From positions 1 to 32,234 of IMG/VR virus record IMGVR_UViG_3300025913_000349: DNA of 32,234 bases; one strand, 5' to 3'. This document shows, one piece after another, positions 1 through 24,774 of this stretch. The notes under the pieces were generated by a model that was not told the DNA's origin, ran no database searches, and saw only the letters and a list, made by a program, of their open reading frames with translations. How positions within the stretch are numbered: the stretch's first letter is position 1; each line of letters begins with the position of its first letter. Origin of the DNA: a virus. The position numbers and the translations under genes are program-made.

Positions 1-62
1 GACGGCTGGGCAAAAGCCACGGAGGCGAAACAGGCAGCGGCGATGAGTATGAGAGTTTTCAT
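1..62 (-). CDS. Secreted protein, N-terminal fragment (runs off window)
   Basis: Only the first 20 codons lie in the window; the rest continues beyond position 1. The ATG at 60-62 opens a peptide beginning MKTLILIAAACFASVAFAQ, a textbook Sec signal peptide: Lys2, a hydrophobic core, then an AFA-Q cleavage site. It starts 8 nt after the stop of the upstream gene, with no evident Shine-Dalgarno sequence, so it probably depends on the same transcript and on coupling. The MKTL opening is shared with the genes starting at 5633 and 8366, making it a further member of the exported series that closes the tail operon. Its function cannot be read from this fragment. Confidence 0.75.
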   Translation of the reverse strand, partial: MKTLILIAAACFASVAFAQP

Positions 63-70
63 GGTGTGCT

Positions 71-3000
71 CTAGTGGATGATGACTTTGCCGTTAGCCCC
101 GACCTTGCCGCCGGCTGGAGATGGGTGCGCGCCGCCACCGCCGCCGCCTGATGGCGAGACTACCAGCGTGATACCGACGGTTTGGGGTGAGCCGGTAATC
201 CCGCCCGTGGTGCTCGAGATCGTGACGGTATCCGTGACGGTGCCGGCACCGAGGCTGGGACAGCCCGTAATGCTCACGGCGATGTTACCCGCGGCTGATC
301 CGCTCGTCGGTGAAATGGAGTCCCAGGATTGCGTTTTGCTGCCCGAGAACTGATCGAGCGTGCCGCCCGTCGCGGCGACTGCGATGTTCTGCGCGGATGG
401 ATTCGACCCACCGGCAGTGCAACTGAAGGAGAGCGAGGACGGCGAAGCGGTCAGCGTAAGCGCGGGGGCACCAGCGCTCATCGTGGCGGGCAGCGTTGCC
501 GAGTCAACGGTGATGCCTGCCGAGTCTGTCACGGAGAAAGTCGGGTCGCACGTTTGAGCGCGCGTCGGCGTGCCGGAGTAGACGCCGGTCGTCGCGTTCA
601 GAAACAGCCCCTCGCAGGGTAGGCCCGAAATGATCTTCCAGGTATACGGGGAGGTGCCACCTGTCGCTGCGAGAGTGGCCGTTTTGGGTACTCCGACCTG
701 GCCCGCCGAGAGCGAAGATGTCGTAACAGCCAACGTCGTGGGAGTTCCGCTCAAGGCCACCACGCCCGCGGTGGACTCGAAGTTGATCGCGGCGTCTCGC
801 GAGGAGGTAACGGAGAACGGAGAGCCGGATACCGGAGTGCCACCAACCGTGACGGCGTACGACCCAGGCTTCAGGCCAGCGATGAGATATTGCGCGGTCC
901 CGCTATGCGTTGTGGTGAAATTGGTAAGCGATGATCTAAGCACGCCACCGCGAGCGAATAGCGCGACGTTGTTTGTGGTCTGCACGCCGGTCCAGTTCGC
1001 ATCCGGGTTGATGGCCGTCGCCGTGAGCGTGGTGTCGCTCATGTTTTGTGCGATCTTATGCACCTCAATCCAATCACCAGAATTGGGCGTAGCGGAAGAC
1101 GAAGCCCCGCCGTAGATCGAAACTCGGTGAGTGCTTCCTAGCCCACCGGGAAAGCTGCTGCCGTCGTCCTTCACGAAAATAGTGCCGCCGGTCGGCGCAA
1201 GAATCTTCGTCACGATTCCATAGACATTTCCAAGCGATCCGCTCTGCTGAGAGAGCACCGTGCGATTCGTGTCGAGATTAGCGCAACCACCTGACCCTGG
1301 ACAGGTCGTATCCCCCTCCGCATCCACGTGAGTAGGCGCCGCCGCCTGTCCATTCTGCGAGTAGTGGATCTGGTGTCGGAATGGCGTCTTGGTTGCCGCA
1401 GAGGTCTGGTCGATATCGACGTAGACGATTATGTTCTCTTCCGTGCTGGGCTTCTTGAACTGCGCGACCGAAATCTGCGCGCGGTCGATCTGCGCGTTGT
1501 ACTGCTTCTTGGTCTCTGCCGTCGTATAAACGATGTTGTTCGCCGGATCGCCAGCGTTATCGGGACCGTGCCACCGGGTGATATTGCTGATCGCCCAATC
1601 TCCGTACCCCAGCGAAGCGTGAAGCCCAACACCCACGAAATCAATCATGGACGTTTTCGCCCTCGTGTCTGCTTGATCTAGCTGTCCAGGTACCTGAGAA
1701 GCATCGTCAGGCTCTAACAAGGGCTGGCGCTTGAACACATGCAAGTCCCCCGCGGCGGGAGTGGTGCCATAATAATCAGCCCCTTTTGCGCTCAGGGCGA
1801 GCAGCATCATGTGCGTGCAGTCCGAGGGAAAAGTGAAACACCCGGTGCTGATCACGGCATCCATCGACATCGTAACCGGGATAACGGTCCCAGTCAGGGA
1901 TACCATTTCCGCCTTGTTCGTCGGAGTGAACAATCGCTGATGAGAGAGACCTGTCAGCGTGCCTGTCGGAGTGTTCGGCGAATCCGCCAGGATTGCGTTA
2001 CCCACGTAATTCGAATTCGTGTTGGGAAGGCTGATAGCCGAAAAGAACGCCCTCAATTGCTGCGCCTCGGTACTTTGGGGAGCAAAAAGAAAGCTCGCGT
2101 CCGCCCTGCCTTGATACGGGTACAGATTATTTGAGATCCAGCTAGCTCCGCCCCCCACCCCCCAAACTGCAAACTGAGGCTGGCCGTTGTACAGCTCTGG
2201 AGTTGTGGCGTAGATCTTGTACATTGTGTTTTGTTTCGACCACTCGGTCGGAAACGAAGTCCACAGCGACGGTACGGATTGGAGCATGAACCAAAGGGCG
2301 TCTTTTCGGTACGGCAAGTCGGAGTCAGCGTTGTAACTTGTCCCAGCGGAGCCGAATCCCGTATACGCACCCAAGGTGTCGGTCATGATCGCGTCCCACG
2401 TCAGGGATTGGTACATCGAGAAGAGATCAAGCGCTCTTGAATCTTCGTCCGCCAGTGCGCCCGCGATGCTCATGATTGAGCCATAACTTTCGGAACCGTT
2501 CTGGTGGGTGATGAAACAGCACTTGTCTACGTTGAGAGCCTGTTTGTTTGGCCAATACATTTCCTGATTGACCGCTCCACTCCAAAACCCCCTGGCCCAC
2601 ATAAATCCGGCGACACCTGGAACCCAATGGTGCAGGATTGTTAGGTGGGTTGGCGTACCGACTGGCGTAGTATTCAGCGTATTGACGGTGATGTGGGTGT
2701 CATCAACTACAGAGGTGACGTAGTATTCGCCGCTGGGATTACTGATCGACCTCCAGAGCAAATAGACCGTGTCACATCCGTACGAGTCGCATGGGTGAAT
2801 ATCCGTCAGCCAATGAGTTCCGGTCCCGATCCATTGGGTCCCATTGAAGGTCGCGGTGCCGGTGTCTTCTAGCGGGATGTTCTTCGTTACGCTCTGGAGA
2901 TCCGTAGCATCCCATCCATTTAAGATCTGGTCGCGAAAGTCCTGGCGTTCCTGAGTGGTCAGCAGGCCCTTGCCAATCGTGTACAAGGTGCCGAAGTTGC

Positions 3001-4498
3001 GCAAGATGTAGTTGGAGAATTGTGACCACGTATAGTTCCCGCCCATCGAAGAGCCTGATTCAAACACCCCCCAACCGGCAGAGGTGTACATCCGGCGCAA
3101 ATGCGTTAGCCAATACAACACGCTAGCCTTTGCAACCGCATCCCCCTGATCCACGAAATACTTGATCCCGTAGATGATCTGCACGTCGGCATTCGTGTTG
3201 ATCACATCGAACTGCCCAATTGTTCCACCGTCGAACTTGTGACGCTGTGGTCCATAAGTGGCCGTCATGCTCACGACCTGATCCCAAATCGGGTCTCCGG
3301 TGAAAGCACGCTGCGAGATCCTGAGGCAGTCCGCATTGCTCGCCGGACCACATGTATTGTTGGCCCCGGTGTAGGTGGCGGCGGGGATCGAAGAGTTTAC
3401 GGTGAAATGAAAGGTGGTCGCGGTATCGACTGTGATCGTGTACGGGGTTCCGCCGTTATTGAGTGTTGAGTTCCCCGACCCCCAGATGGAGATTTTTGGG
3501 CTTGCCGCCCCATATCCCGACGGAGCTGTCACGTGTGCGATATGACTGGAGTCTACGGTGAGCGAGGCTAGGCCATTCCACGTGCCCATCGCCATCGAGC
3601 GTGTGAAGGTGCCGTTATCGCCATCGAACCAGCCACGCAACCCAACCGACATTGCCTGATTAGTTTCTACTCCACACCACTGGATTGATCCCTCGGTCAC
3701 CGGATGAGACATCACGGCTGTCAAGGTCTGGCCCGACCCTCCCGAGGTAACCGTAACGGTCGGTGGAGTGGGCGGTATGGGAGGTGTGACATAAAACCCA
3801 CCGTCCAGCATCGTTACCGAAGTGATGCTGCCTGCAGTAACGTTGATGGTCGCCCTGGCGGTTATGCTTCCAGAAACCCCTCCCGTGAAAATCACGGCGT
3901 CTCCGTCGGTGTAGCCTGTGCCTGTGCCTGACACAGTGACGGAAACTACCTGCCACGGACCTCCATGCTGCCATGGTCCGCTGGCGGTGATGTCTGTGCC
4001 GGCGAGATTCGTGACGCTGAAATGCGTGGCGTCCACGACGGCCTTGACCTTTAGGTGGCCGTTCAGGTTCAACGCACCGGGGATATTCCAACACCCGATC
4101 TGCTGCCCAGCCGTGAAAGCGTGCGGCCACATCGACTGGATTACAGCCGGCGGACCGGTGGTGGCACCTGTGACATACACCACGCCCGGCCCGCTACTGC
4201 GGACGGGCACCATTGTCTGAGCTAAGGAGGGAAGGCTACAGTGAGCCAGCAGTGCGGAACATAGCAAGATCCGACTTGCTAGCGACCCGCATCTTTTGCC
4301 ACTGGGGTGCTGGGTAGGGACCGCGGTCTCGCAGCCAATTCCAGATGCTCCGGAAGCTTGGGAGCGGTCCTTTGCATACCAGCCAGACCGTAGAACCCGC
4401 GTCCCCACTGGATCGATGGAGACCGACTTCCGCCCCAATGGTGGGCGAGAAGGCAGGAGCGGCGAGGTTCGGCGTCGGCTGTTGCACGAATCGATCAT
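71..4498 (-). CDS. Large secreted polysaccharide-lyase-like protein with Ig-like and BACON-like C-terminal domains
   Basis: 1475 residues. A hydrophobic signal-like segment sits at about residues 69-93 (KR...ILLCSALLAHCSLPSLA, cleavage before Q94), unusually far from the start. About 185-265 is a glycine/threonine-rich tail-fibre-type repeat (GYTDGDAVIFTGG...ITSVTMLDGG). About 400-800 is rich in W, Y and helices and reminds me of the alpha/alpha toroid of heparinase/alginate-lyase-type enzymes, followed by beta-rich sequence to about 1150. About 1250-1340 resembles a He_PIG Ig-like domain (SPYTWKIISGLP...GVYSGTPT), about 1347-1447 a BACON-like domain (SPSSLSFSCTAGG...ISPTSGSA), and the end is a Gly-rich tail. 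Domain calls are by eye; no catalytic residues were assigned. The ATG at 4498 lies 1 nt past the upstream stop (TGATATG), but the first ~68 residues look poorly coding, so the true start is uncertain. Probable role: export and degradation or binding of surface or soil polysaccharide. Confidence 0.8.
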   Translation of the reverse strand: MIDSCNSRRRTSPLLPSRPPLGRKSVSIDPVGTRVLRSGWYAKDRSQASGASGIGCETAVPTQHPSGKRCGSLASRILLCSALLAHCSLPSLAQTMVPVRSSGPGVVYVTGATTGPPAVIQSMWPHAFTAGQQIGCWNIPGALNLNGHLKVKAVVDATHFSVTNLAGTDITASGPWQHGGPWQVVSVTVSGTGTGYTDGDAVIFTGGVSGSITARATINVTAGSITSVTMLDGGFYVTPPIPPTPPTVTVTSGGSGQTLTAVMSHPVTEGSIQWCGVETNQAMSVGLRGWFDGDNGTFTRSMAMGTWNGLASLTVDSSHIAHVTAPSGYGAASPKISIWGSGNSTLNNGGTPYTITVDTATTFHFTVNSSIPAATYTGANNTCGPASNADCLRISQRAFTGDPIWDQVVSMTATYGPQRHKFDGGTIGQFDVINTNADVQIIYGIKYFVDQGDAVAKASVLYWLTHLRRMYTSAGWGVFESGSSMGGNYTWSQFSNYILRNFGTLYTIGKGLLTTQERQDFRDQILNGWDATDLQSVTKNIPLEDTGTATFNGTQWIGTGTHWLTDIHPCDSYGCDTVYLLWRSISNPSGEYYVTSVVDDTHITVNTLNTTPVGTPTHLTILHHWVPGVAGFMWARGFWSGAVNQEMYWPNKQALNVDKCCFITHQNGSESYGSIMSIAGALADEDSRALDLFSMYQSLTWDAIMTDTLGAYTGFGSAGTSYNADSDLPYRKDALWFMLQSVPSLWTSFPTEWSKQNTMYKIYATTPELYNGQPQFAVWGVGGGASWISNNLYPYQGRADASFLFAPQSTEAQQLRAFFSAISLPNTNSNYVGNAILADSPNTPTGTLTGLSHQRLFTPTNKAEMVSLTGTVIPVTMSMDAVISTGCFTFPSDCTHMMLLALSAKGADYYGTTPAAGDLHVFKRQPLLEPDDASQVPGQLDQADTRAKTSMIDFVGVGLHASLGYGDWAISNITRWHGPDNAGDPANNIVYTTAETKKQYNAQIDRAQISVAQFKKPSTEENIIVYVDIDQTSAATKTPFRHQIHYSQNGQAAAPTHVDAEGDTTCPGSGGCANLDTNRTVLSQQSGSLGNVYGIVTKILAPTGGTIFVKDDGSSFPGGLGSTHRVSIYGGASSSATPNSGDWIEVHKIAQNMSDTTLTATAINPDANWTGVQTTNNVALFARGGVLRSSLTNFTTTHSGTAQYLIAGLKPGSYAVTVGGTPVSGSPFSVTSSRDAAINFESTAGVVALSGTPTTLAVTTSSLSAGQVGVPKTATLAATGGTSPYTWKIISGLPCEGLFLNATTGVYSGTPTRAQTCDPTFSVTDSAGITVDSATLPATMSAGAPALTLTASPSSLSFSCTAGGSNPSAQNIAVAATGGTLDQFSGSKTQSWDSISPTSGSAAGNIAVSITGCPSLGAGTVTDTVTISSTTGGITGSPQTVGITLVVSPSGGGGGGAHPSPAGGKVGANGKVIIH

Positions 4499-4499
4499 A

Positions 4500-5633
4500 T
4501 CAGAATCCCCAGAAGGTGTGCTGGTTGCTGTTCATGGAAGTCCTTTGTCCGGACGAGAAGCCGATTTGCCAGATGCCACCTTCGCGGATATACCCAGTGA
4601 GATTGAGGCCACTTCCGAACGGCGCGGCTCCGAATGAGATATGATCCGATCCGAGCTGGCCGGTCGCTCCCGCATCTCCAGTGGAACTAGTTCCGTCGGA
4701 CACGATTACCGAGGATGCGCCGTTAAAAATCCCGAGCAGGGAATGCATGGCGTTATCGGTCGCCGATCCGTCGAACTCTGCGCCATTGATCAGCGCTATG
4801 GTCCCCGCGCTCCCGGTAAAGTAGAACCGCGCGTAGTAGGTGCCGAAAAACACCGTGGAAGACACGGAAGTTCTTTCCGCGACCGCCGCATAAGTAAATG
4901 GGACAGAATACGGTCCCATGTTGCCGGATTCCAAGATTTGAGTGCCGGTGAAATGGAGACACGGCAGACTCGCGCCGCAGTTGAACTTGAGCGTTGGCCT
5001 GGATGCGATCGTGGCCTGCGTCAGGTCGCATGGTCCGGAGCATGAGGATGCGCCGGATTGATCGTACATCGTCTTTACGGTGCAGACATCATCCGCACAG
5101 CTCAACGGAGATGCCTGAACCGTGGTCAGGTCGAAGCTCCCGTCACTGGAAAGGCTGTTGATGTCGGCGCAGTTCGTATCGCTCGCATTGCATACCCGTG
5201 CGACCTTCGTCCCGCGGCTCGCGCTGCTGTAGGATCGCAGCCCCGCCCAGGCATAGGCGCCCGTCACAACGTCGCCCGCTCCCGTGTATGGCGGTGCCGA
5301 GATCGTATAGACGCTCGTCAATACCGACGAATCCGCCATGCCGCTCTTGCACCCGATCGCCTTGATCGTGGTCGTCGCGGCAACGCTAATGCCGGTGGAG
5401 TACGTCGTGCCGGTCGATGGGCACGCGGGTGTGCTGCCGTTCGTGGTGTAGAGGATCGTCGAACCGCTCGTGGTGTCGCTGAGCGTCACCGTTTGCGTGC
5501 TGGTGTAGGTTCCCGCGCCAGGCGAATCCGTGGGCGTGGAGACTCTGCCGCCGGACGATCCCATCAGGAGCATCACGGAGGATTGGGCTTGCGCAGAGGC
5601 GCAGAGAGCGAGTGCGAGGAGTAGAGTTTTCAT
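4500..5633 (-). CDS. Secreted arabinofuranosidase-B-like protein with chitobiase-C-like domain
   Basis: 377 residues. Residues 1-17 are a clear Sec signal peptide (MKTLLLALALCASAQA, then Q). About 33-111 resembles the chitobiase/hexosaminidase C-terminal module (SPGAGTYTSTQTVTLSD...ILYTTNGSTPACP...IKAIGCKSG). About 120-377 resembles the N-terminal lectin-like catalytic fold of alpha-L-arabinofuranosidase B (AYAWAGLRSYSSASRG, DGSFDL, VKTMYDQSG, LTQATIASRPTL), a domain also seen in phage tailspikes. Ten cysteines occur, mostly in close pairs (CNASDTNC, CADDVC, CSGPC, CGASLPC), which suits disulfide formation outside the cytoplasm. The ATG directly abuts the upstream stop (TAAATG). Enzymatic activity is not proven from sequence; a glycan-binding role is the alternative. 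Confidence 0.82.
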   Translation of the reverse strand: MKTLLLALALCASAQAQSSVMLLMGSSGGRVSTPTDSPGAGTYTSTQTVTLSDTTSGSTILYTTNGSTPACPSTGTTYSTGISVAATTTIKAIGCKSGMADSSVLTSVYTISAPPYTGAGDVVTGAYAWAGLRSYSSASRGTKVARVCNASDTNCADINSLSSDGSFDLTTVQASPLSCADDVCTVKTMYDQSGASSCSGPCDLTQATIASRPTLKFNCGASLPCLHFTGTQILESGNMGPYSVPFTYAAVAERTSVSSTVFFGTYYARFYFTGSAGTIALINGAEFDGSATDNAMHSLLGIFNGASSVIVSDGTSSTGDAGATGQLGSDHISFGAAPFGSGLNLTGYIREGGIWQIGFSSGQRTSMNSNQHTFWGF

Positions 5634-8366
5634 TTATGTGAGCCCCTGTCCCGAGATGAACCACAAAGTGGCGGTGACCTTGATTGCAACCGCCATTCCG
5701 CCGGCCGCAAGCGTGCGTGATCCAGTCGTCGCCGTCCCCGCGAGCTGCAGGGTGTCCGATGTGATGGCGATCGTCACAGTGTTGATCTGGTTGATGAACG
5801 TGATCGTGGTCCCGATTGGGTACGCCACATTCGCGTTGCTATCGATCGTAAAAGTCCGCGCGTTGTTGTCGGCGGTCGGATGGAGGATGTGCTTGCCGCT
5901 ATCGGCTAGGACCGTCGTGTAGGCGGCCGATTGCGAGTTCTGCGAGACATCCATAGACAGCCATGTGCCAGCACCATCCAGAACCTTCCGCGCTCCGGGA
6001 GTGCCGCTAATCGGAGCGGCCATGATGCCCGTGTACGCCGCATTCGAATAGAGCGCGGTGCCTACCGTCTGATTGTTGAAGTATACGTTCCCCGTCCCGG
6101 TGCCCACCCGGAATACATTCGTATTTGATCCGCCTCCCTGATTCCCGTAAATCCTGGAGTTCACTACGCCGTCGCCGATGTAGAAATCGTAGTTGGCGTG
6201 ATTGTGGACCGTGGACATATTGTTGTCGAGGTAGACCGAGCCGCCAAGAAATTCAAAAGCCGCACTGTTGGCATTTGTGCTCGCCGCGACGATCTCGTAC
6301 TCGTTATCGGCAAGGATTATGTTTGCGAAAGTTGGGTTGAATGTTGAACCACCCAAGCAGCCCATGTTGTTATGGCGGAACGAAACCGTACCAGCCCCGC
6401 TCCCGGTCGTAATATTGATGCACTTCGCGGTTCCGTACAGAGTGCTCTCAGAGACGTTCAAACTATCGGTAGTGGCGTCAATGCGGATGTCGTCCCCATC
6501 ATTCGACATGTCCACGTTGGTGATTGAGACGCTGATGGCCCCATTGCCCTGGAACCGGATGCCCGCTCCGCTATGGGTCGCGACATCCCCGAAGTTATAA
6601 ACGAACAAGTCGTGGAAGTGGCCCTGCACCACAATTCCCGAATTGCCCTGTAGGTTGATCGCGACCTGATTGGCCGCACTGTTGCCGACCAGTTGCAGCC
6701 CGTGAATCTGTGGCCCGTTGATGTTGCCGGCCAAATTGAATAACGCGCCGGTCCCGGTGTAGTGGATGCTCGTGTGCCCGTAGCCGAAAACTTCGATGTG
6801 CTCGCAAAGCTGAATCGTTCCCGTTACGAGATACGAGGTCGCGACTGCCGGGAATACGACCCGCGGCGCGACTCTCGCGCAAGCCGTGGCGAATGCGTTG
6901 GTGATGGCCGTCGTATCGTCGGTGGTTCCATCTCCAACGGCCCCGAAGTCCTTGACGCTGAGGATTTCGCCCGCCGCGGAACAGATGTAATTCGCTCCAT
7001 TGCTCTGGACAAGCACCTCGTGGCCCATTGCAATCGGCGTCGAGACGCACCCGGTGATCGCGTTGCCGTTCGGGTCGAGGACAAGCCCAGTAGCGTTGCC
7101 GCTCTTCACGGAGACGATGAAGCCCGTCGCCGGAACGGTTGCGGGAAGCGTAGCGGTAGAAGTGGCCCCGGTGTAAAGATGCGTTCCGGTATCGGAAGAG
7201 GTGATCGTATAGCTCCCCGTGTGAGTCGTGACGCCGCCAGAGCCAGCGGCACCGCCCACCAGCGGAGTTAGCGTTCCAGAGCTATTTTTCAGCTTGGCCA
7301 CATGATCCGTATCGATCACCAACGACTGCGATCCCGATGGAGGACTTGGAATCGCCGATGCCGAACCTTCAACAAATGTGACGGTGGTCGTTCCCGAACC
7401 AGAGGCATCTACGACCTGACGCCATACACCTACACCTCCGCTGGAAGACTCGCAGCGCCACAGTGTTGATGGGCTCGCGGTGGTGTTGGTTCGGTAGTCT
7501 ACGCCCGCCGTGCAGTTCTGATTGGTGGGATCGACTGAGACGTTCGTGTTGACCACATTTCCGGCGCCGGTCGCCGTGCAGTTCTGCGCGTTCCCTTGGG
7601 CATCGACGCCAAGCGGATAGTTTCCGGCGCTACACTTCGTTGGAGTGCCCGCCAATGCCGTCGCCGTCGCCACATTGCTATCCAGGAACGCGAACGTGTG
7701 GACCGATGCGCCCGTATAGCCCTTGAAGGTGTTGGAGGTTGTGTCGTAGCCGAAGTGTCCGTTCAGCGTCGGCGTGTATCCGGCCGCATTCGGCACGCGC
7801 AAGCTCGTGGCCGCGCTGAAGTCCTGCGCACCCGTGGTGTACGTGTTCGCTTGGTCGTTGTATACTGTGGCCGCGTGCTGACGAGCTTTAGCTAGCGCTC
7901 CCGAGAGGATCTTTCCGGCATCCACGCTGTTGAGGCTGATATCCGTTCGGGTCGCGCCCGAGTTGTCGGCCACGGTGAATTCGGTACTGAAGTTTAATAT
8001 GCCGCGCGCCGTCACGGGAGTCCCGTTGCCGGACACGGTTCCATATCCCCCGCCACCAGACCCGCACGGAGCACCAGCGTCACCGAGGCCAACGACGGAC
8101 CAGACAACGCAGTTGCCGGCCACGCCGAGCGCATTGGCCGCTACCGCCTTAGAGCCAGTGCCCCAAAGCGTCGGCGCTCCCGTGATCTTGGAATAGGGAA
8201 TAGAGACGATGAACGACGGGTTGGTGTATGAGCCGTTGGCATCTACGGCACGCCCAAGGCTCAGATTGAGGTTCGTGCGGAATGTCGCGTGATCCGTATT
8301 CGGGACCGTCGGAACCTGCGCAACCGCGAGGCCTGCGCAAATCAGAAGTAGAGATAGCGTTTTCAT
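5634..8366 (-). CDS. Tailspike-like beta-helix protein (pectate lyase 3 fold) with a Sec signal peptide
   Basis: 910 residues. I chose the ATG at 8366 because AGGAG lies 4 nt upstream and the protein then begins with a signal peptide (MKTLSLLLICAGLAVAQ). About 18-240 is low-complexity fibre sequence (GHFGYDTTSNTFKGY, CSAGNYPLGVDAQGN). About 383-460 is a small beta module (GSYTITSSDTGTHLYTG). About 469-800 is a right-handed beta-helix opened by the family hallmark SVKDFGAVGDGTTDDTTAI, as in phage depolymerase tailspikes. About 807-910 repeats the earlier beta module type (AAYTTVLADSGKHIL...). The gene follows the 8374 stop by 7 nt and abuts the next start. Expected role: trimeric spike that recognises or cleaves host polysaccharide. 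The signal peptide is anomalous for a virion spike. Confidence 0.88.
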   Translation of the reverse strand: MKTLSLLLICAGLAVAQVPTVPNTDHATFRTNLNLSLGRAVDANGSYTNPSFIVSIPYSKITGAPTLWGTGSKAVAANALGVAGNCVVWSVVGLGDAGAPCGSGGGGYGTVSGNGTPVTARGILNFSTEFTVADNSGATRTDISLNSVDAGKILSGALAKARQHAATVYNDQANTYTTGAQDFSAATSLRVPNAAGYTPTLNGHFGYDTTSNTFKGYTGASVHTFAFLDSNVATATALAGTPTKCSAGNYPLGVDAQGNAQNCTATGAGNVVNTNVSVDPTNQNCTAGVDYRTNTTASPSTLWRCESSSGGVGVWRQVVDASGSGTTTVTFVEGSASAIPSPPSGSQSLVIDTDHVAKLKNSSGTLTPLVGGAAGSGGVTTHTGSYTITSSDTGTHLYTGATSTATLPATVPATGFIVSVKSGNATGLVLDPNGNAITGCVSTPIAMGHEVLVQSNGANYICSAAGEILSVKDFGAVGDGTTDDTTAITNAFATACARVAPRVVFPAVATSYLVTGTIQLCEHIEVFGYGHTSIHYTGTGALFNLAGNINGPQIHGLQLVGNSAANQVAINLQGNSGIVVQGHFHDLFVYNFGDVATHSGAGIRFQGNGAISVSITNVDMSNDGDDIRIDATTDSLNVSESTLYGTAKCINITTGSGAGTVSFRHNNMGCLGGSTFNPTFANIILADNEYEIVAASTNANSAAFEFLGGSVYLDNNMSTVHNHANYDFYIGDGVVNSRIYGNQGGGSNTNVFRVGTGTGNVYFNNQTVGTALYSNAAYTGIMAAPISGTPGARKVLDGAGTWLSMDVSQNSQSAAYTTVLADSGKHILHPTADNNARTFTIDSNANVAYPIGTTITFINQINTVTIAITSDTLQLAGTATTGSRTLAAGGMAVAIKVTATLWFISGQGLT

Positions 8367-8373
8367 TTTGCTC

Positions 8374-8907
8374 CTAATGCGCGTCGAATAGGCCGGACGC
8401 AGAATCGAACAGGCCAGAATAGGTGTCGAAGAGGGCACCACCGCTGCCGCCACCGCAGACCGTGATGGAAACGACTTGCCAGGCTGGAGGCGATACCGTG
8501 ATGCAGTACGTACCGGATTTCAGGTAGAGATTGGCCGGAATCGCGGCACCCCGGATGTCGGTAATCTTCAGAACCGAGGCTGTATCAGGAACCACCCAGA
8601 CGGGCTCGTCGTAAGAATCGAGAACAACGGCCTTGGGGTCGTTGGAGGTAGTGATATAGACCTTGGCGTTAAAGTAGACGTTTGTTCCGCCTTCGACCGT
8701 GAAGTCCACCGCGCCGTTTACTATCGGAACGGTGAACTTAGTCTTTAGGGCGCTTTTCCCGTTGGCGTCTCTCTGATAGCCCTGGACAACGAAACGCCCG
8801 AAGGCTATTGGCGTTCGGCCATCGCCTCCAACCACATTCGTGTCAACGATGTGCGTACTCGCGAGGCCAGACGCAGCTATGGCCAGCAGGGCAATCAAGA
8901 TTTTCAT
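8374..8907 (-). CDS. Small secreted protein of the tail-fibre block, function unknown
   Basis: 177 residues beginning with a convincing Sec signal peptide (MKILIALLAIAASGLAS, then T). The mature part looks all-beta (FGRFVVQGYQ, FTVEGGTNVYFNAKVYITT, PVWVVPDTASVLKITDI, YCITVSPPAWQVVSITVC) and ends in a Gly-rich linker with a threefold LFD repeat (LFDTYSG, LFDSASG, LFDAH). I do not recognise the family; the beta pattern suits a structural or binding domain. No strong Shine-Dalgarno precedes the ATG. It stops within the ribosome site of the beta-helix spike gene, so the two are probably translated together. It could be a partner or chaperone of that spike, which is inference from position only. 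Confidence 0.78.
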   Translation of the reverse strand: MKILIALLAIAASGLASTHIVDTNVVGGDGRTPIAFGRFVVQGYQRDANGKSALKTKFTVPIVNGAVDFTVEGGTNVYFNAKVYITTSNDPKAVVLDSYDEPVWVVPDTASVLKITDIRGAAIPANLYLKSGTYCITVSPPAWQVVSITVCGGGSGGALFDTYSGLFDSASGLFDAH

Positions 8908-8927
8908 GGGAGTGAACCGGAATGGAA

Positions 8928-9290
8928 CTACGCTTCGTAAACGGAGATCACCGCGTCAACCGTGCCAGCAGACGCCGCGCCGAATAGGGTGTTAGTCGCG
9001 CTCGAAAATAGGCACGCGCCGCCGGGGGGAATGGAAATCACCGGAGCACCACCTGCTCCGTTACTTACGAGCAGATTATACGAGGCTGCCGTATTTTTAA
9101 TCACGACGTAGCCAACGTTCGTTATGGATCCGATCCGGAATGCGATGGGGGTAGCGGTAAAGGTCTGGACAGACTCTTCTTTATACTTCCCGGCCATGTT
9201 CTGCGCGACCTGATAGGCCACGGCATCGTTGATTAGGGTGGTAGCGTTGCTGGCCGAGATGCTTACGGCGACATTGAGTTCGTTTGCCAT
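8928..9290 (-). CDS. Small tail-associated protein, unknown function
   Basis: 120 residues. A good Shine-Dalgarno (GGGGAG at 9297-9302) lies 6 nt before the ATG. The first ~50 residues look helical and Ala/Asn-rich (VSISASNATTLINDAVAYQVAQNMAG); the rest looks like beta strands with VGYVVIKNTAASYNLLVSNG and VISIPPGGACLF. The second half resembles small beta-sandwich proteins placed beside phage tail-fibre genes, where it might cap or decorate a fibre. No signal peptide is visible, unlike the genes that follow it. Family not identified. Confidence 0.75.
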   Translation of the reverse strand: MANELNVAVSISASNATTLINDAVAYQVAQNMAGKYKEESVQTFTATPIAFRIGSITNVGYVVIKNTAASYNLLVSNGAGGAPVISIPPGGACLFSSATNTLFGAASAGTVDAVISVYEA

Positions 9291-9310
9291 TTAATTCTCC
9301 CCTTGAAAAG

Positions 9311-9781
9311 CTACGGCCATGGAACCTGCACGGGCGCTGGAAATCCACATCCCTTGTATATTCCACGGCACAGATATATTAGGTAAGAGAGCACTTCGGC
9401 CTGCGTCAACTTCAGAACGGAGAGCGAGTTTTTCCAGTACGGCGGAATAACTGGTGAAACGTTAGATCCCTGAGCCCCGATCTGCAATACCTGCAAAACG
9501 TATTCCAGTAGCTGAGGATCTCCAGAGAAATCGTCACCGGAGGAGTAAGGCCGGGTGGCCCAGTTCATCAGGTGCTTCCAATCCGACGTAGTCTCAATGA
9601 TGTTGTGGCTTCCGTCCATGGGTATGGTCGGCTGGCCCGCGAAAACCGCCGTCAGCGCATTATAGATATCCTCAGATGTCGCCGTGGCTAAGACGGCTGT
9701 CGGTGCAGTGCCAGAGTCTACCAGCACATCAATGGCACTTAACGGCGCGACTACACTTCCAGAAATGTCGTAAACAGGCAT
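9311..9781 (-). CDS. Phage tail-region protein, shorter paralogue of the neighbouring gene
   Basis: 156 residues. It shares a recognisable N-terminal plan with the gene at 9787-10641: both open MP-x-YDIS, then have VD(D/S)GT(S/A)P(S/T)A, a Q-x-x-IP(V/M) segment, a W-A-x-RPY-x-S motif and a hydrophobic helix rich in L, Y and R near the end. It lacks the carbohydrate-binding-like C-terminal domain of its neighbour and ends with a short Pro-rich tail (CGFPAPVQVPWP). It starts 5 nt after the stop of that gene. The tandem arrangement suggests local duplication. Role unknown; probably part of the fibre or tip assembly. Confidence 0.78.
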   Translation of the reverse strand: MPVYDISGSVVAPLSAIDVLVDSGTAPTAVLATATSEDIYNALTAVFAGQPTIPMDGSHNIIETTSDWKHLMNWATRPYSSGDDFSGDPQLLEYVLQVLQIGAQGSNVSPVIPPYWKNSLSVLKLTQAEVLSYLIYLCRGIYKGCGFPAPVQVPWP

Positions 9782-9786
9782 GGTAT

Positions 9787-10641
9787 TTAGCTCTCACACG
9801 TAACGGTTGCGCCCCACACGTACACGTCCCCAGAAATGCCGTCTCCTCCCACTCCGATTCCCGTCCGGTTGTCTATCCCGATGTCGATTGAAGATCCTGA
9901 AAGGGAGAACGTTTTGGTAACTGACACCTGGGCCCAGTCAGTGGTCAACGCTATGGATTGAGCGGTATCGTCACCGCTTCCGGAGTTGGCATTGATATTC
10001 ATTCCGATGGTTGCCTTCGATGGGGATCGCATCCAAGCACGGAACGTGTACTGCCTTCCGGCGATTGGTTGGCCAAGGGGAATGGCTGGCTGGTAGACGT
10101 GCGATGTTGAGGCGCACGTGAGGATGTTTGCTGTATTGGTGCCATCGGGAGCGGCCCCGTTGGTGGCGATGGTGATGCTGGAAGCTACCCACGGGCTGAC
10201 GTTCAACGTGTTTGGACGAACGATCGGATTTGGATTTGATAACCCTGCGGAAAGCCGGACTACTCGCATCACCCAAACTAGGCGGAGTAAAATATCTGCC
10301 TGGGATACTGGCAACCCTCCACCAGTCGAAGCCATGTCGTCCATTACCTGCTTGACCGTTTGGGGTGAATACAGACCGTTCAGGACATTCAGGCCGTCGA
10401 AGGAATCATAGGGACGGGCTGCCCACTGCGAAAACGCCTGAAAATCGGAGATAGTGAATGCGATGTTTCCGGACGATACCGGGATTACAGGTTGGGCGGC
10501 CGCAAGTGCCGCGAGTTGATTTGCGGTGCGACGGGAGAGGGCTTCAGTGTAGAGAGCGGACGGAGATGTCCCGTCGTCCACCAGAGTGCCGATAGCCTGA
10601 TCGGTGGTAAGGGGGTTATGCGATATGTCGTAAAGTGGCAA
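9787..10641 (-). CDS. Phage tail-region protein with C-terminal carbohydrate-binding-like domain
   Basis: 284 residues. The start is TTG at 10641, supported by a strong Shine-Dalgarno GGAGGTG 7 nt upstream and by alignment of its N-terminus with the paralogue at 9311-9781. Residues 1-135 are the shared domain (MPLYDIS, VDDGTSPSA, WAARPYDS). About 145-284 looks like a jelly-roll binding module of the CBM4/9/22 type (SPWVASSITI, DGTNTANIL, YTFRAWMRSPSKATIGMNI, WAQVSVTKTFSL), a layout typical of phage fibres that touch glycans. No enzyme motif is seen. Probable role: accessory fibre or glycan adhesin. Confidence 0.82.
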   Translation of the reverse strand: MPLYDISHNPLTTDQAIGTLVDDGTSPSALYTEALSRRTANQLAALAAAQPVIPVSSGNIAFTISDFQAFSQWAARPYDSFDGLNVLNGLYSPQTVKQVMDDMASTGGGLPVSQADILLRLVWVMRVVRLSAGLSNPNPIVRPNTLNVSPWVASSITIATNGAAPDGTNTANILTCASTSHVYQPAIPLGQPIAGRQYTFRAWMRSPSKATIGMNINANSGSGDDTAQSIALTTDWAQVSVTKTFSLSGSSIDIGIDNRTGIGVGGDGISGDVYVWGATVTCES

Positions 10642-10642
10642 T

Positions 10643-10840
10643 CTATTTCACCTCCGTCGCGTCTGGTTGCCTGAGCAGTGTCGTTCCGTCGGAGCTGAGG
10701 CCCCAGTTTCCTTCTAGGTGCTGCTGGCGCACAAGCATTCGAAGCGCGCTTGCCATCTGCTTCTGCACCTCGGAAATGGCCGAAAGGTAGACCCCCATCT
10801 CTTTTTGCTCTTCGGGAGTGAGGCTGTATTCGCTTTGCAT
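10643..10840 (-). CDS. Small helical tail-region protein, unknown
   Basis: 65 residues, predicted mostly helical and charged (LTPEEQKEMGVYLSAISEVQ, MASALRMLVRQQH), ending in a short tail. It begins 1 nt after the stop of the large fibre gene and its own stop lies between the Shine-Dalgarno and the TTG of the next gene, so it sits tightly in the operon. Its C-terminal codons encode the ribosome site GGAGGTG for that next gene. The size and helical nature would suit a small assembly chaperone or fibre adaptor, but this is inference; I do not recognise a family. Confidence 0.7.
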   Translation of the reverse strand: MQSEYSLTPEEQKEMGVYLSAISEVQKQMASALRMLVRQQHLEGNWGLSSDGTTLLRQPDATEVK

Positions 10841-10841
10841 A

Positions 10842-13800
10842 TTAAGTAATCTGAGTTATTAGGCCACGCTGAAACGTTAGAGTTGTTTTGCCTGGGAATC
10901 CGTTGAAAGAGAACGAGCCTGGCGCGAAGACCAGCGTGCAGGTTTGTCCCCGGTGAGTCGTCCCGTCCACTAGATTTGCAACGAAGTCTGTCGCGCTGAT
11001 AGGGCCACTTGAATCGATCGCTACGGGAGCACCGTTGACGTTCAACTGATTCAGCCTGACGGTGTAGTTTGATCCAACGAACGTCACGCCCGAGCCGATG
11101 GTGATGTTGGCCAAATTCCATCCAGTGATATTCTGAACGGCAATTTGCGCGCTTACAATTGATCCGGTAATGAGAGTTCCGGGGATCGCGACGTTTCCAG
11201 ACGCATCGGCAATGATCGGAGCATTCGCTGGACTCGTTCCGCCGATCATCACGCGCTTGAACCACGCACCAGAGAATCCAGAAGCGGAATCGCTCCCGAT
11301 CCAACCCATCGGCACGCCACCCGGCGAGATCGTAATCTGAGGGACGGAGTTACCGACCGTGAATCCGTTGAATCCCTTGCTGAAATCTACGCCTGCGATT
11401 ATCAGCTTGCCGGCAACAAAACTAAATTCGGAGTTCGCCGACACGACAAGATTTCCCTGCGTGTCGAAGCCCATCCCGTTGCCAACTGAGATGTGGCCAG
11501 TCGCTTCCAGATCCGCATTATCGACATACCACGTTCCGGAAGTGTTGTTGGCCGTCGATAGAAAAACTTGAACGTATGCCGTGTTGATAGGCGCGGTCCC
11601 CGAGACCGCCATCGCCGTCCATGCGCCCGGAGCGCCAATTTGCGGCGCTTCCGTAATCGTGATGAACCCCTGCGCGAAGTCAAGCCAGATCAGCCCGCAT
11701 CGCATCGTCCCATTCGCTCCGCTAGCATAAACCAGATCGGACAGATGGAACATGTCGCCGGGTTTGCAGGGGAATGTCTGAACGATGGAGGAGTGGCTAC
11801 CGGACAGCGCCACGCATCGGGCGCTGGGATTTGTGGCATTCGATAGCGGGTTGACGACAGTGGTTACCGTGCCGATTTGCCCACCACCTATCGACCAGCC
11901 GGACGGCGTGCCGCCGAGTGCGCCCTCTTCGAAGGAGCCGTTGACCAGCAGCGGAGCGCCGGTTAGCTGGAGCTTCCCGGCGGTGTCGATGTACATGCCG
12001 GAGCCGATGCTGGAGGGTGACAGCCCAGAGGTGATCTGCGAGGTCGGCGGTGCCCCGAAAGTAATGTCGCAGTACGTGTGGTCGGTGCTGTATACGATGC
12101 CCGTATTCGGCGGAGTGCCGGTCCAGACAGCTTGCACCGTGGACTGCCCCGAGCGGCTGAAAGCGATCAGGCGAACGCGGAGAACGGTGAAATTCGAACC
12201 GACAGGGTTAAATTCCCACCCGTCGATGTCGGTGCAAACGTTGGCTGCGCCGGGAATGAATTCTTTGGCCCCGCTGTGGTAAGTCTTCGTACCGCCCTGA
12301 TCTGCTGGAGCGATAACCTCACCCGCTCCGGGAGCGGGCGTGCCCGCCTGCACGACATAGCACTCGAAACGCGCGTAGAAGAATTCAGGATCGGTGTAGT
12401 TGGGATTCGTGAATGTCATCCCTGGCTGGACGCCCCAGTAGACGACTTTATCTCCCGTGATTCCGATGGTTACGCCTTGATAGAGTGCCGCGCCCGTTGC
12501 CGTGCGGGGCAGCACCGAGACCGCAGTGCAGGCCGTTGCGCTGGGAGCCCCGACCAAGGCGACAGTAAATGGCGAAGATATCGAAGCGCTCGCGGGCAGG
12601 CTGGTTACGGGACCAGATGGTCCGGGACTGCGGAATGTCCCATCGGGCCAGTTCCACGCACCGATCGCGACAGCTACCTTACAAGACGGTTTAACGACGT
12701 CCGTCGGTCGCCATAGTTCGAAGCTAAACGAGAACGAAGTCGTCGCCGCATCCACCCAATCGAGGCCAAACCACGTATTGCCGTTATCGGCAGAGAAATA
12801 TGCCGTAAGCGCCTGCGGAGACGCCACACTAACGCCGGGACCGTTGGCAGTGCCGATGGTGCCAGTGACCGTTACGTGCGTCTTAGACCCCTGCCCCGCC
12901 TCGATGTATGCCGCTCCCTCAGCCCCGCCGACTGCCGATACGGTGTTGGGCGCGACGGTTACGGCAAAGATATTAGGCGACGGATTCGCTACGCTGTCAG
13001 GATTGATCGCGAGAAATTCGATGCCCCACGTTTGAGCGGCGGCCGGGATGTCATCGACCGCGTTGCCCGTGAATCCGTACGCCGTGCCAGGAACGAACGG
13101 GCCAGACGAATCCCAGTACATCGTCTCGATAATCGACCGCTGTCCAGCCGCATTAACCCGCGAGACGCGAACGGAATAGTGGACGCCCGTAAGATTCGTC
13201 GGCGCCACAAAGCTCACCTTGAAGCCGACAGAAAAGCTGTGGCCGTTCCGTACGTAGATCGGGCCATCTCCCGAACTCGTCATAGCCGTGGTGATCACGG
13301 GAGCTGGCGGAGCGGTAGTGCTGAATGGAGCAGCGGTACCTGTGACCGTGACGGATGTGGAAGCTGGAAATGGAGTACGGACCCCATCAGCGTTATCCAC
13401 CCAAAATTGCAGAGTGTAGTTGAACGTTACAGTGTCGCGTGGCTGCGTGGGGGTCTGGTAGAAAAGCGTGTTTCCAACGAGAGTGAACGAAATACCAAAT
13501 TGCGCCTCCTGAATCACCAAAAGCTCTGGAAGAATGATCCCCGCCGCAGTGGCGACAATGTGAACGTTGTTGATGTTTGTATATGGGGTTGGCAGTACAA
13601 ATTGCCCCGTCAGATACCATTTTGGCAACCCGCCCTCGGTCGTGTAGTTAGCGAAGGCCGTGGGGCTTGAGACGTTGAACGCGAGCGGCGTGACAACTGT
13701 CGCCTTTCCGCCAACTAGGCCCAACCTATCACCGAGAGTCGCCGGATCCCACGGACTTGCCGTAGCGAGCGCTTTCGTCAGGCTCGGCTGAATGTAGGCG

Positions 13801-15059
13801 TACTGCCCATCGGACGAAAAGATGATTTCTGAACAGGGCGAGGTCTGGCCAGAGAAGGCCGCCTGCGTGACGATAGATCCGGCCGTCGGAATGACGTCTA
13901 GATGAATGCGGACGTCGGGGTATGCATCGGTGGAGATACGCACCGACCACGGCCACACGGGTGCCACGGTAACCGAGTCTCCCGTGACGGTGATAATCGT
14001 ATTAGCGTCGGACTGAGTTACCTGAACGTCGCAAAATGCTTTGTCGGCGCTGTCGTCGGGCCTGGCCGTCCATGTAGACCCGTTCCACTTTCCGTTTTGC
14101 ACGTAGCAGCGAACGGATCGCAGGGTGGGGTGCGTGCTGAATCCAGCGGTGAACCCGAGTGTCCCGAATTTGAACCCGAATGCTCCGCCACCGATGGTGT
14201 AGTACTTGAGCGCGGAAGATAGCCCGGTGAAGTTAGCGCCGCTGATCCAACTGCCCGCTGAGGGCGGGGCGGCCGGCCCCGACATCGTATACGTGCCTGC
14301 CGCGGCCGATGCTGGAATGGTGGTGCCATCCCATGCGCCAAGCGCAACATATACCGTCAAGACGGTGGACGATAGGGTCGTGATGTAAACCTGATTCTCC
14401 CCGGTCAGCACAATTGCAGTGGTGAGGCCCGTGATGGGAAAGATGCCCTTGCGGGTAGTGATTGGATCGGGTCCCTTGTCTGGGTCACCCCACGCATATT
14501 TCGTCCAGACCGTGACGTATTGGATTGCCGAAGATCCGCCGAGGTTGGCACTAAGCGTGGGCGTTACGGTGAGCGTGGTGGCGACTGCGCGTTCTATGTT
14601 CGTCGTGATGCGAGGCCCGGTCTCAACCACGGTGACAGAGCTTACGGAGGGCGCGGTGGTCGTGACCGTGCGCGTCGTGGGGCTCGCCGTTGCCTTGTTC
14701 GCGTCGTTGATGCAGCGGAATTTTAACGTCCACGTTTCGGCGGGGTACGGAGCGGAAACGGGAGTCGGGATGCTGCGGACGGTTAGCGTCGATCCTGAAA
14801 ATGGGGCATACACCGAGGGGAATGTTAGCGAGTCGCCGGCTCCGTTGGTGGCGATGGTCTGGATCTCGAACAGGTGCGCGTACGCCCCGTCAGAAGTTGG
14901 CAGATGGAGCGTGGCTGTCAGCCCGCGGTTCCAGTCGTGGCCGTACGGCTCATAGTACGCCGACGCAACGGTGGTGCCGTCGTCTAGGATGTTTGGCGCA
15001 TCCGGTGGGGGCGTATAGCTTCCGCCGCTCGTCGTGGAAATGGTATGGTAGCTGCCCAA
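10842..15059 (-). CDS. Large multi-domain tail tip / central fibre protein
   Basis: 1405 residues, the longest tail gene after the tape measure and directly behind the hub gene, where phages place the host-contact fibre. Most of the protein is a series of beta-sandwich, fibronectin-III/Ig-like segments (repeated stretches such as ETWTLKFRCIN and QTWGIEFLAIN). About 1037-1188 resembles a CBM4/9-like jelly roll (LVNGSFEEG...GWSI...WYVDNADLEA). The final ~215 residues look like a lambda-J-type fibre end (GNLVVSANSEFSF, IVSAQIAVQNITGWNLANI). The start is a TTG with AAAAGG upstream. The coding frame is the same as that of the hub gene, separated by one TAA and 12 sense codons. Role: receptor or glycan recognition. 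Confidence 0.85.
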   Translation of the reverse strand: MGSYHTISTTSGGSYTPPPDAPNILDDGTTVASAYYEPYGHDWNRGLTATLHLPTSDGAYAHLFEIQTIATNGAGDSLTFPSVYAPFSGSTLTVRSIPTPVSAPYPAETWTLKFRCINDANKATASPTTRTVTTTAPSVSSVTVVETGPRITTNIERAVATTLTVTPTLSANLGGSSAIQYVTVWTKYAWGDPDKGPDPITTRKGIFPITGLTTAIVLTGENQVYITTLSSTVLTVYVALGAWDGTTIPASAAAGTYTMSGPAAPPSAGSWISGANFTGLSSALKYYTIGGGAFGFKFGTLGFTAGFSTHPTLRSVRCYVQNGKWNGSTWTARPDDSADKAFCDVQVTQSDANTIITVTGDSVTVAPVWPWSVRISTDAYPDVRIHLDVIPTAGSIVTQAAFSGQTSPCSEIIFSSDGQYAYIQPSLTKALATASPWDPATLGDRLGLVGGKATVVTPLAFNVSSPTAFANYTTEGGLPKWYLTGQFVLPTPYTNINNVHIVATAAGIILPELLVIQEAQFGISFTLVGNTLFYQTPTQPRDTVTFNYTLQFWVDNADGVRTPFPASTSVTVTGTAAPFSTTAPPAPVITTAMTSSGDGPIYVRNGHSFSVGFKVSFVAPTNLTGVHYSVRVSRVNAAGQRSIIETMYWDSSGPFVPGTAYGFTGNAVDDIPAAAQTWGIEFLAINPDSVANPSPNIFAVTVAPNTVSAVGGAEGAAYIEAGQGSKTHVTVTGTIGTANGPGVSVASPQALTAYFSADNGNTWFGLDWVDAATTSFSFSFELWRPTDVVKPSCKVAVAIGAWNWPDGTFRSPGPSGPVTSLPASASISSPFTVALVGAPSATACTAVSVLPRTATGAALYQGVTIGITGDKVVYWGVQPGMTFTNPNYTDPEFFYARFECYVVQAGTPAPGAGEVIAPADQGGTKTYHSGAKEFIPGAANVCTDIDGWEFNPVGSNFTVLRVRLIAFSRSGQSTVQAVWTGTPPNTGIVYSTDHTYCDITFGAPPTSQITSGLSPSSIGSGMYIDTAGKLQLTGAPLLVNGSFEEGALGGTPSGWSIGGGQIGTVTTVVNPLSNATNPSARCVALSGSHSSIVQTFPCKPGDMFHLSDLVYASGANGTMRCGLIWLDFAQGFITITEAPQIGAPGAWTAMAVSGTAPINTAYVQVFLSTANNTSGTWYVDNADLEATGHISVGNGMGFDTQGNLVVSANSEFSFVAGKLIIAGVDFSKGFNGFTVGNSVPQITISPGGVPMGWIGSDSASGFSGAWFKRVMIGGTSPANAPIIADASGNVAIPGTLITGSIVSAQIAVQNITGWNLANITIGSGVTFVGSNYTVRLNQLNVNGAPVAIDSSGPISATDFVANLVDGTTHRGQTCTLVFAPGSFSFNGFPGKTTLTFQRGLITQIT

Positions 15060-15080
15060 AGGAAATTTACCTTTTGTGCT

Positions 15081-15092
15081 GTTTGTACAAAC
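15081..15092. promoter_or_regulatory. 12-bp perfect palindrome in hub-fibre gap
   Basis: GTTTGTACAAAC reads the same on both strands and lies in the 36-nt gap between the hub stop and the TTG start of the large fibre gene. It could be a protein-binding half-site pair or a small RNA hairpin near the weak fibre start, but a 12-bp palindrome can also arise by chance. Confidence 0.3.
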
Positions 15093-15095
15093 GTC

Positions 15096-20000: not shown

Positions 20001-20047
20001 GAGTTGTCGCCCGAGATTTTGACAAACAGTTCGCTAAGTATGCTCAT
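17003..20047 (-). CDS. Tail tape measure protein
   Basis: 1014 residues. The N-terminal ~300 residues match tape-measure proteins (MSILSELFVKISGDNSSYKKALKD, then FDEAFTQIQRSTGATGEKLEGLK, TRVFGDWSIAATNTGHAMDFLRVVSQQTG). Two hydrophobic stretches lie at about 340-366 and 410-432, as expected for the part inserted in the host membrane. About 505-800 is long charged coiled coil, then a Gly/Ser/Ala-rich segment and a C-terminal VTFNNCSFSGG tip. It overlaps both neighbours by 4 nt (ATGA). By the usual rule of about 0.15 nm per residue, the tail would be near 150 nm long. It sets tail length and is ejected with the DNA. Confidence 0.95.
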   Translation of the reverse strand: MSILSELFVKISGDNSSYKKALKDSQADTAAFEASQEASANRLSAIGGRLLGGIGFGAIGAGALAAASKFDEAFTQIQRSTGATGEKLEGLKASFNEVYKNTSTGSEQVAAAMSNISARTGASGAALEDLTLKMIKLGKTQREDVTAIAPLVTRVFGDWSIAATNTGHAMDFLRVVSQQTGTRVAAISEVLVYAGAPLRALGYDFESAATMIGKFEKEGVNTQLVLGGMKAILGKFAKEGVADTAAAWQDFIEKVRSGNIGLSQIAQTAGEFGVGRRAAVDLFRAIQEGRFNIDDTTKSYRTMADVVVKDTETMKGQVIKWTHSLEELVAGHYQLITVIGLTYPAWSRIGGLVLPMISGWVGAMIGGGGAVTAVNALTGSTYALGGAWTATGTAANAALGSAGVAGTAATLLKTLGAIGLAIGAIIAGLKLLDIGHSGDNPTGTLSDSERRALAISGGQGAIDRAQAAVTARAGQQPATAGPSASAYAVPVPASLNAGGGLGPAALTDAQYRLQASEIDAYAAHQKALLDLRRTALLEEKVLDTQAAQDRFALLEGANQKELRITLAAIDQKIALEKQKNDDQKDVTLGAQRQAAIDAAAKKSLELRHDLAIEEEKIDAQSLAMKRDLSEATVKLYNENSKRWNSIILGPAEADLKLSEAVAKHVNTLNLAIRKDEERASQEEESGEEQHQTRLIELKRKAADFAYSQGTISAKQRLAIEKDLDAQEIEIQRKAIQRMIDLLDAEDWIDTDRLAKRQALINALKALEDKNAENEQKAAQASIASAYNVSRELSNATHQSFDAIYRGFGDLVVNGGKAFDKLKEIGKNFASDLFSIMLKGLFKPLEDQIAKLVGNLGSVFGSAAGGAGGVSSAAGSAGSAGSGASSAASGLGGIGGVISVVSGAVTAISSVVGNFQMAGMNKSLDVLVNHTLRIFNVVYQDQQEHWAFKSQLFAKMDDMWHAILDKGDLIAGRIGTGGSGGGSLVTFNNCSFSGGADPNAVMAAAFKQFNLAQGK

Positions 20048-24250: not shown

Positions 24251-24774
24251 TTCACGGCTTCCAAAATCGCGGTAACTTTCCAGACTGGTTCGGGGTGCGA
24301 CGGATCGTCCGTTTCCACCAGGCTCAGTACCCGAAACCGCGCCGTGATTCCGTACGATTGCGCGAAACGGTTATGCGCCAGCGAACCATCTTCGAAGTAG
24401 GCGAACGACGCCATACACCATGGCGTAACGTGCGTTGGGTCGCAAGCGAATCCGGCACCATGCGCGGCACTCGGGACTTCCACGGTCGCTCTGCCGCCAG
24501 GGACCAGCACGCGCCACAGTTCGTTCATGCAATGGATACGCCCGCTCCAATGCCGGGTCGTATCTCCGGGTCCAGCGCATCGGCCGCACCGCGTCAGATA
24601 GTGGTCGCAGTCGCCGATATGCTCGAAAACGTCGTGGGCTCGGACCTCTTCCACTGATGAGTCAGGCCACGGCCACGGTTGCGACAGGTCAGCGATAATA
24701 TCTGCCGGCGGGCATAGGTCTACCGATTGGAAGCCGGGAAAGCCACGATCGCAACTTCCCAAATTCAATTTCAA
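24247..24774 (-). CDS. SAM-dependent methyltransferase with Cys-rich insert
   Basis: 175 residues. A class I fold is supported by the glycine motif near the start (MKLNLGSCDRGFPGFQSVDL), the acidic second motif in the VDL segment, AHDVFEHIGD, and MNELWRVLVPGGRATVEVPS; DPTHVTPW at 112-119 is typical of small phage and glycan-cluster methyltransferases. Between motifs, residues 54-82 hold Cys56, Cys63, Cys66 and Cys82 with His75 and His81, an insert that could bind zinc. It is ATGA-coupled on both sides to glycosyltransferases, so it probably methylates a sugar or its carrier. Substrate unknown. Confidence 0.85.
   Translation of the reverse strand: MKLNLGSCDRGFPGFQSVDLCPPADIIADLSQPWPWPDSSVEEVRAHDVFEHIGDCDHYLTRCGRCAGPGDTTRHWSGRIHCMNELWRVLVPGGRATVEVPSAAHGAGFACDPTHVTPWCMASFAYFEDGSLAHNRFAQSYGITARFRVLSLVETDDPSHPEPVWKVTAILEAVK

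Follow-up and report, generated by a model that had tools for sequence, protein, structure and literature searches.

A series of predicted Sec-exported fiber- and spike-type proteins at the 3' end of a siphophage tail operon, with counterparts in cultured phages of Acidobacteriota

The window, that is, the whole stretch of DNA analyzed here, is a linear virus record of 32,234 bases (IMGVR_UViG_3300025913_000349) whose main genes all lie on the minus strand. Genes for TerS, TerL, the portal, a protease, the major capsid protein, connectors, the major tail protein and the tape measure follow one another in this order, and this soil phage is an HK97-type siphophage. Relatives of its TerL are scattered over Proteobacteria and many phyla and indicate no host. 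A weak methyltransferase-like gene flanked by two family-2 glycosyltransferases (23483-25487, minus strand) lies between the capsid genes and those for the head-tail connectors and forms a glycan-modification cassette within the head region. After the tape measure gene come two large tail proteins and three small genes, followed at the 3' end of the operon by a series of genes bearing signal peptides. The 636-aa tail protein and the tape measure protein (15096-20047, with the latter at 17003-20047) lack signal peptides, as do the tail proteins of 120, 156, 284 and 1405 aa encoded immediately upstream of the series in the same operon (8928-15059, minus strand), and none was called by our heuristic scorer in the remaining structural genes of the window. 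A consensus scan of positions 1-15200 found no promoter or terminator signals above chance; with none separating them from the tail genes, the signal peptide genes most likely encode late proteins.

Three complete genes (starting at 8907, 8366 and 5633) and one cut gene (starting at 62) begin with Sec/SPI-type signal peptides (scores 5.6, 6.1, 6.3 and 6.4, respectively), three of them opening with MKTL, as the initial annotation had proposed. Each combines a short basic n-region, a hydrophobic h-region and an AxA-type site at the true start according to the heuristic scorer, and inspection of the four signal peptides found no lipobox ([LVI][ASTVI][GAS]C), which argues against lipoproteins. The first gene (8374-8907, minus strand) encodes a 177-aa protein with the N-terminus MKILIALLAIAASGLAS, a Sec signal peptide beginning MKILIALLAIAASG, two Cys in the mature part and the C-terminus FDTYSGLFDSASGLFDAH; its AlphaFold model reached a pLDDT of only 35. 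The second (5634-8366, minus strand) encodes a 910-aa tailspike-like protein with 12 Cys, the signal MKTLSLLLICAGLAVA being predicted to be cut before Q. It consists of an N-terminal part with the motif PNTDHATFRxNLN, a pectate-lyase_3 beta-helix and a C-terminal phage fiber domain, and its match to PF12708 and late tail-gene locus are those of a tailspike or fiber. The third (4500-5633, minus strand) encodes a 377-aa protein with the signal MKTLLLALALCASAQA, likewise predicted to be cut before Q, 10 Cys and a CHB_HEX_C_1/Fn3_assoc domain that is 57-58% identical to a domain of the signal-peptide-bearing gp17 of phage Tunturi_2. The cut gene (1-62, minus strand) starts with MKTLILIAAACFASVAFA, predicted to be cut before QP, and its remainder lies past the contig end.

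The gene starting at 4498 (71-4498, minus strand) is a 1475-aa ORF with a He_PIG Ig-like domain, a weak heparinase-II C-terminal match and 16 Cys past the presumed cleavage. An internal signal peptide had been attributed to it, and a signal-like stretch, LLCSALLAHCSLPSLA followed by QTM, does exist near 4290-4225, but it adjoins no usable start: just upstream there is no in-frame ATG, GTG or TTG with a basic n-region, and the nearby ATG with MRVASK sits in the neighboring frame. The 5' part of the 1475-aa ORF shares its DNA with an 83-aa ORF in another frame (4236-4487, minus strand), and the ATG and basic run belonging to the frame of this short ORF do not read into the signal-like segment. 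The domain assignments of the initial annotation also held in part. Pfam matches bear out the pectate-lyase-type beta-helix and the Ig-like domain and identify the CHB_HEX_C/Fn3 domain, the toroid side (heparinase-II C-terminal) stays below threshold, and BACON, lectin and arabinofuranosidase domains have no Pfam match. Relatives of the signal peptide proteins add CBM_4_9 and a weak phage minor tail protein match over a propeller-like stretch; comparison with PHROGs assigned the window proteins to no convincing family. Taken by their domains, these proteins are predicted to be glycan-binding or glycan-cutting appendages.

Signal peptide calls come from a heuristic scorer of n-, h- and c-regions, not SignalP; on this scale classical E. 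coli signal peptides reach 5.2-6.8 and LacY 3.8, and FtsQ and the window capsid protein receive no score. The 8366 start is preceded within a few bases by an AGGAG-type ribosome site, so that a longer GTG ORF from 8453 is not favored, and the 5633 start by an AGGGG-type site. Among 2000 trials with shuffled N-termini, the 8366 score was reached in two and the 5633 score in none, while about 2% of shuffled N-termini matched the scores at 8907 and 62. In 79 control phage contigs, the rate of signal peptides at any start was 27/935, and a strong signal occurred in 1 of 658 ATG-start ORFs; at the control rate, signal peptide scores in all three of the named neighboring genes have a probability of about 2e-5, a value that ignores how those three were chosen. 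That hydrophobic N-termini arose by chance, or that the starts are wrong, is scarcely plausible; the missing proper start of the 4498 gene would fit such an explanation, but the control rates are low and the GenBank starts of the Tunturi phage genes described below are independent. Judged by scores, starts and controls, the predicted signal peptides of the window are genuine.

The same arrangement was sought elsewhere and recurs in uncultured phages. L002 (the same as L249) encodes a homolog of the 910-aa protein whose first part is 49% identical; there, the letters of the signal peptide have diverged but the signal peptide is intact and PNTDHATFRxNLN is kept; its upstream neighbor is a syntenic homolog of the 177-aa protein (40%), with the C-terminus GLFDAH common to both. 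In total, L002 holds five syntenic or adjacent signal peptide genes, these two homologs and three more around them. Homologs starting consistently downstream of the signal-like segment, which would have counted against it, were not found: the L002 homolog retains its signal peptide, and the proteins without one share the C-terminal domain only. L003, probably podovirus-like, encodes a fiber without a signal peptide and then signal-peptide-bearing proteins of 1196, 248 (score 3.8), 732 and 115 aa, and in L154 three signal-peptide-bearing fiber-type genes lie between the portal and a putative capsid gene, within the late structural block. Modules are common to signal peptide proteins of different phages, the 910-aa window protein sharing 70% over 111 aa with the 578-aa protein of L154, 65% over 34 aa with the 1196-aa protein of L003, and a module with the 774-aa protein of L002. 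Pattern-based searches for relatives of the 177-aa protein, the 636-aa protein, the portal, TerL and Tunturi gp11 returned no loci, the derived patterns not being conserved.

Signal-peptide-bearing fibers were also found, via L089, in contigs of the Acidobacteriota group, namely in G066 (two, L127 and L245), G058 (L130, where the gene adjoins tape-measure and tail genes) and G278 (L246); the fiber of G046 is borderline, with a score of 3.97 just under the threshold. G066 carries two diverged prophage loci, L245 (2269-4416) and L127 (12360-14846), with homologous signal peptide fibers (~38-69% identity), and a search of Acidobacteriota with the L127 fiber matched its own genome only. Surveys of Acidobacteriota prophages via the tape-measure and TerL families recovered few intact ones, with signal peptide fibers in some and fibers without signal peptides in others, and no phylum-wide rate is claimed from these few. 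Gln follows the cleavage site in 5 of 18 Acidobacteriota signal peptides and in 2 of 14 from other loci, numbers too small to identify a host. Near a prophage tape measure gene on an Acidobacteriota contig, L134 (9057-10220, minus strand) combines a signal peptide with a trypsin-like domain and a collagen-type GPPGPPG repeat.

Cultured relatives of this arrangement exist in Tunturi 1 and 2 (PP887698, PP885685), plaque-forming podoviruses of Acidobacteriota (Tunturiibacter) from Finnish tundra soil (PMC11924767). In both phages gp12 (1190 aa), gp13 (675 aa, tail fiber), gp14 (~918 aa, pectin lyase/tail spike), gp16 (149 aa) and gp17 (1184-1280 aa, virion structural protein) bear signal peptides at their GenBank starts directly after the tail gene gp11, and four of the five are predicted to be cut before Gln. 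The gp12-gp17 block thus resembles the window in placing signal-peptide-bearing fibers and spikes beside tail genes and in its CHB_HEX domain (58%), but the phages are podoviruses with other head genes, and the products are annotated as tail fiber, tail spike or virion structural protein, the main text of the paper mentioning neither signal peptides nor mass spectrometry (PMC11924767). Tunturi 3, which infects the same host strain as Tunturi 1 and 2, has fibers without signal peptides, and the tail genes read in Tunturi 4 and 5 also lack them, so that three of five cultured Acidobacteriota phages have tail fibers without signal peptides. Together with several Acidobacteriota prophages of the same kind, these phages indicate that the host does not demand such fibers, which represent one of several strategies used on these hosts and not a host-imposed rule. 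Tunturi_3 (L268) and Tunturi_2/1 (L264/L267), sharing host strain and podovirus morphotype but differing in the signal peptides of their fibers, form a natural matched pair. Far from the tail genes, Tunturi_2 encodes gp79 (L266 12010-13209, minus strand), annotated as a tail protein, whose signal contains a lipobox-like LTGC and which weakly matches a GDSL/SGNH hydrolase.

The signal peptide proteins are rich in Cys. Mature proteins with signal peptides (n=21) contain 1.45% Cys. The corresponding values are 0.60% for other structural proteins from these phages (n=46) and 0.34% for 67 fibers that carry the C-terminal domain of the 910-aa protein and no signal peptide. The signal peptide proteins of Tunturi_2 reach 2.07%, whereas other structural proteins of this phage have 0.40% and the Tunturi_3 fibers 0.46%. 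Cys numbers are even in 16 of the 21 proteins and, with Tunturi_2 included, in 20 of 26 (p 0.005); this p-value, like the Mann-Whitney values for Cys content of 7e-5 (same phages) and 3e-10 (fibers with the same C-terminal domain), is a guide only, as related sequences are not independent. Within the five phages having several signal peptide genes, a grouping chosen after seeing the data, the count is even in 19 of 21. In gp17 of Tunturi 1, one CHB_HEX repeat is absent, and exactly two Cys are absent with it. Such richness and even counts are expected of periplasmic disulfides and lend independent support to export; however, the Acidobacteriota fibers L127 and L245 have fewer Cys in odd numbers, which runs against an oxidized, exported state. 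The signal peptides could also be leftovers of captured host genes, on proteins that are made and assembled in the cytoplasm with an uncleaved N-terminus. Domains common to Acidobacteriota chromosomal proteins, including matches to the C-terminal part of the 1475-aa ORF in 65 of 396 genomes, are in keeping with such a capture, which is nonetheless unlikely, given that the signal peptides persist while their letters diverge and are located on clearly phage-type fibers, and that the Cys enrichment and even counts fit an oxidizing compartment. The initial annotation had argued that the repeated design across neighboring genes speaks against chance, and synteny, the other phages, the controls and the Cys statistics all support it.

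Whether the exported proteins would become parts of the virion was considered through the C-terminal domain of the 910-aa protein (residues ~793-910), which is common in phage fibers. Modeled from 48 sequences (pLDDT 94), the domain matches the capsid spike of Pa223, a virion protein of KP1 and a tailspike of Solidus, with a weak match to T4 gp10; in BFVD it matches many phage proteins. The signal peptide thus sits on a protein with a virion-type fiber domain. Of 80 IMG/VR fiber loci with this domain, 79 lack a signal peptide and one (L154) has it, so the 910-aa protein departs from the cytoplasmic state of its C-terminal-domain relatives. A substantial possibility, well short of even, is that the proteins are exported but never become virion parts, acting as free periplasmic or released glycan hydrolases or lyases and lectins that loosen the exopolysaccharide of the producer or its neighbors before or at lysis. 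Enzyme-like modules (the pectate-lyase fold, CBM_4_9, CHB_HEX, and the weak heparinase-II and minor tail protein matches, the latter over a propeller-like stretch) point in this direction, as does WceF of Pantoea stewartii, a secreted bacterial glycanase that likewise joins a tailspike fold to an export signal, although it is encoded by a chromosomal biofilm gene and uses a Tat signal, whereas the window genes belong to a phage tail operon (PMC7949094). In addition, Xanthomonas phage PBR31 encodes a signal-peptide-bearing esterase (PMC10975493), and Tunturi stocks gave inhibition zones on strains, mostly without plaque confirmation (PMC11924767). However, several signal peptide proteins resemble plain fibers without a recognized enzyme domain (L127, L130 and the 1196-aa protein of L003), the 910-aa protein ends in a virion-type fiber domain, and little else in Tunturi 1 and 2 could serve as a receptor-binding protein. 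Docking on virions is favored by this domain, by the position among virion genes and by Tunturi 1 and 2, among whose annotated structural genes no obvious large fiber without a signal peptide was seen. The secreted depolymerases and the docking step raised by the initial annotation are both compatible with the sequence.

Expression during lysogeny, also raised by the initial annotation, is disfavored by the late tail operon without a detectable promoter or terminator, the location of the L154 block between portal and putative capsid gene, and the position beside tail genes of plaque-forming phages. Lysogenic-conversion genes (morons) that alter the surface of the lysogen are accordingly very unlikely; the end of a tail operon is where lambda lom lies, but the genes form long multi-gene blocks among late structural genes, show no promoter or terminator of their own in the consensus scan, and occur in Tunturi 1 and 2, for which the paper notes no integrase (PMC11924767). 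Export itself is likely in view of the signal peptide scores, the ribosome sites, the lack of signal peptides in the other structural genes, the signal peptide kept in L002, the other phages and the Cys content.

The cytoplasm is regarded as the place where tail fibers and spikes fold and are assembled. To our knowledge, no tailed phage has a signal-peptide-bearing fiber set or fibers that join after export, and a literature search found no earlier description of signal-peptide-bearing tail fibers. Inovirus coat proteins pIII and pVIII are Sec-exported virion proteins with cleavable signal peptides; these filamentous phages are extruded through the membrane, whereas the window phage is tailed and, in the proposed view, released by lysis. 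The tailspike and fiber depolymerases of tailed phages, such as gp83 of Acinetobacter phage Solidus and the P22 tailspike, resemble the window proteins in beta-helix or fiber architecture and late tail-gene position, and spikes of the Solidus gp83 type share the C-terminal fiber domain; they are, however, made and assembled in the cytoplasm without signal peptides, and their relatives without signal peptides are Cys-poor, whereas the window proteins have Sec signal peptides and many Cys. Sec-exported and SAR endolysins such as Lys44 of fOg44 are likewise late phage proteins exported by Sec before lysis, but they serve lysis and are not components of the tail (PMC6116005). Secreted endolysins, moron-type outer-membrane proteins and inovirus coat proteins thus indicate that phage proteins can use Sec. 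In a survey of DGR targets, phage proteins lacked the signal peptides of their bacterial counterparts, which was taken as support for phage origin (PMC6199706). The signal peptide fiber block is filed here as a variant of tail-fiber/depolymerase systems for which no earlier description was found.

Collectively, the preferred reading is that the final genes of the tail operon would encode fiber-, spike- or depolymerase-type proteins whose Sec signal peptides are genuine and cleavable. During late infection these proteins would pass SecYEG and lose the signal to signal peptidase, in most cases with Gln as the new N-terminus. They would then fold and acquire disulfide bonds in the periplasm, at the time when heads and tails assemble in the cytoplasm. 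At lysis they would mix with the particles, and at least some may attach as receptor-binding or matrix-degrading appendages, while others may act as free enzymes. Sec export, signal peptide cleavage and periplasmic oxidation are highly probable from the sequence evidence, whereas docking on virions at lysis is the least certain step, with a chance at or just below even. The full course of export, oxidation, cleavage, release by lysis and docking of some proteins on virions appears evenly balanced, and it is put forward tentatively, as somewhat less than evenly likely, that the appendages are Sec-exported, disulfide-bonded periplasmic proteins that become attached to the cytoplasm-built particle no earlier than lysis.

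A repeated multi-gene departure of this kind in plaque-forming phages makes it testable whether a tailed phage finishes its particle outside the cytoplasm. If true, this would explain the disulfide-rich fibers, and would matter for the annotation of prophages and AMGs, in which signal peptide genes may be wrongly trimmed or called host genes. Stable, secreted enzymes acting on glycans could then also be drawn from soil Acidobacteriota.
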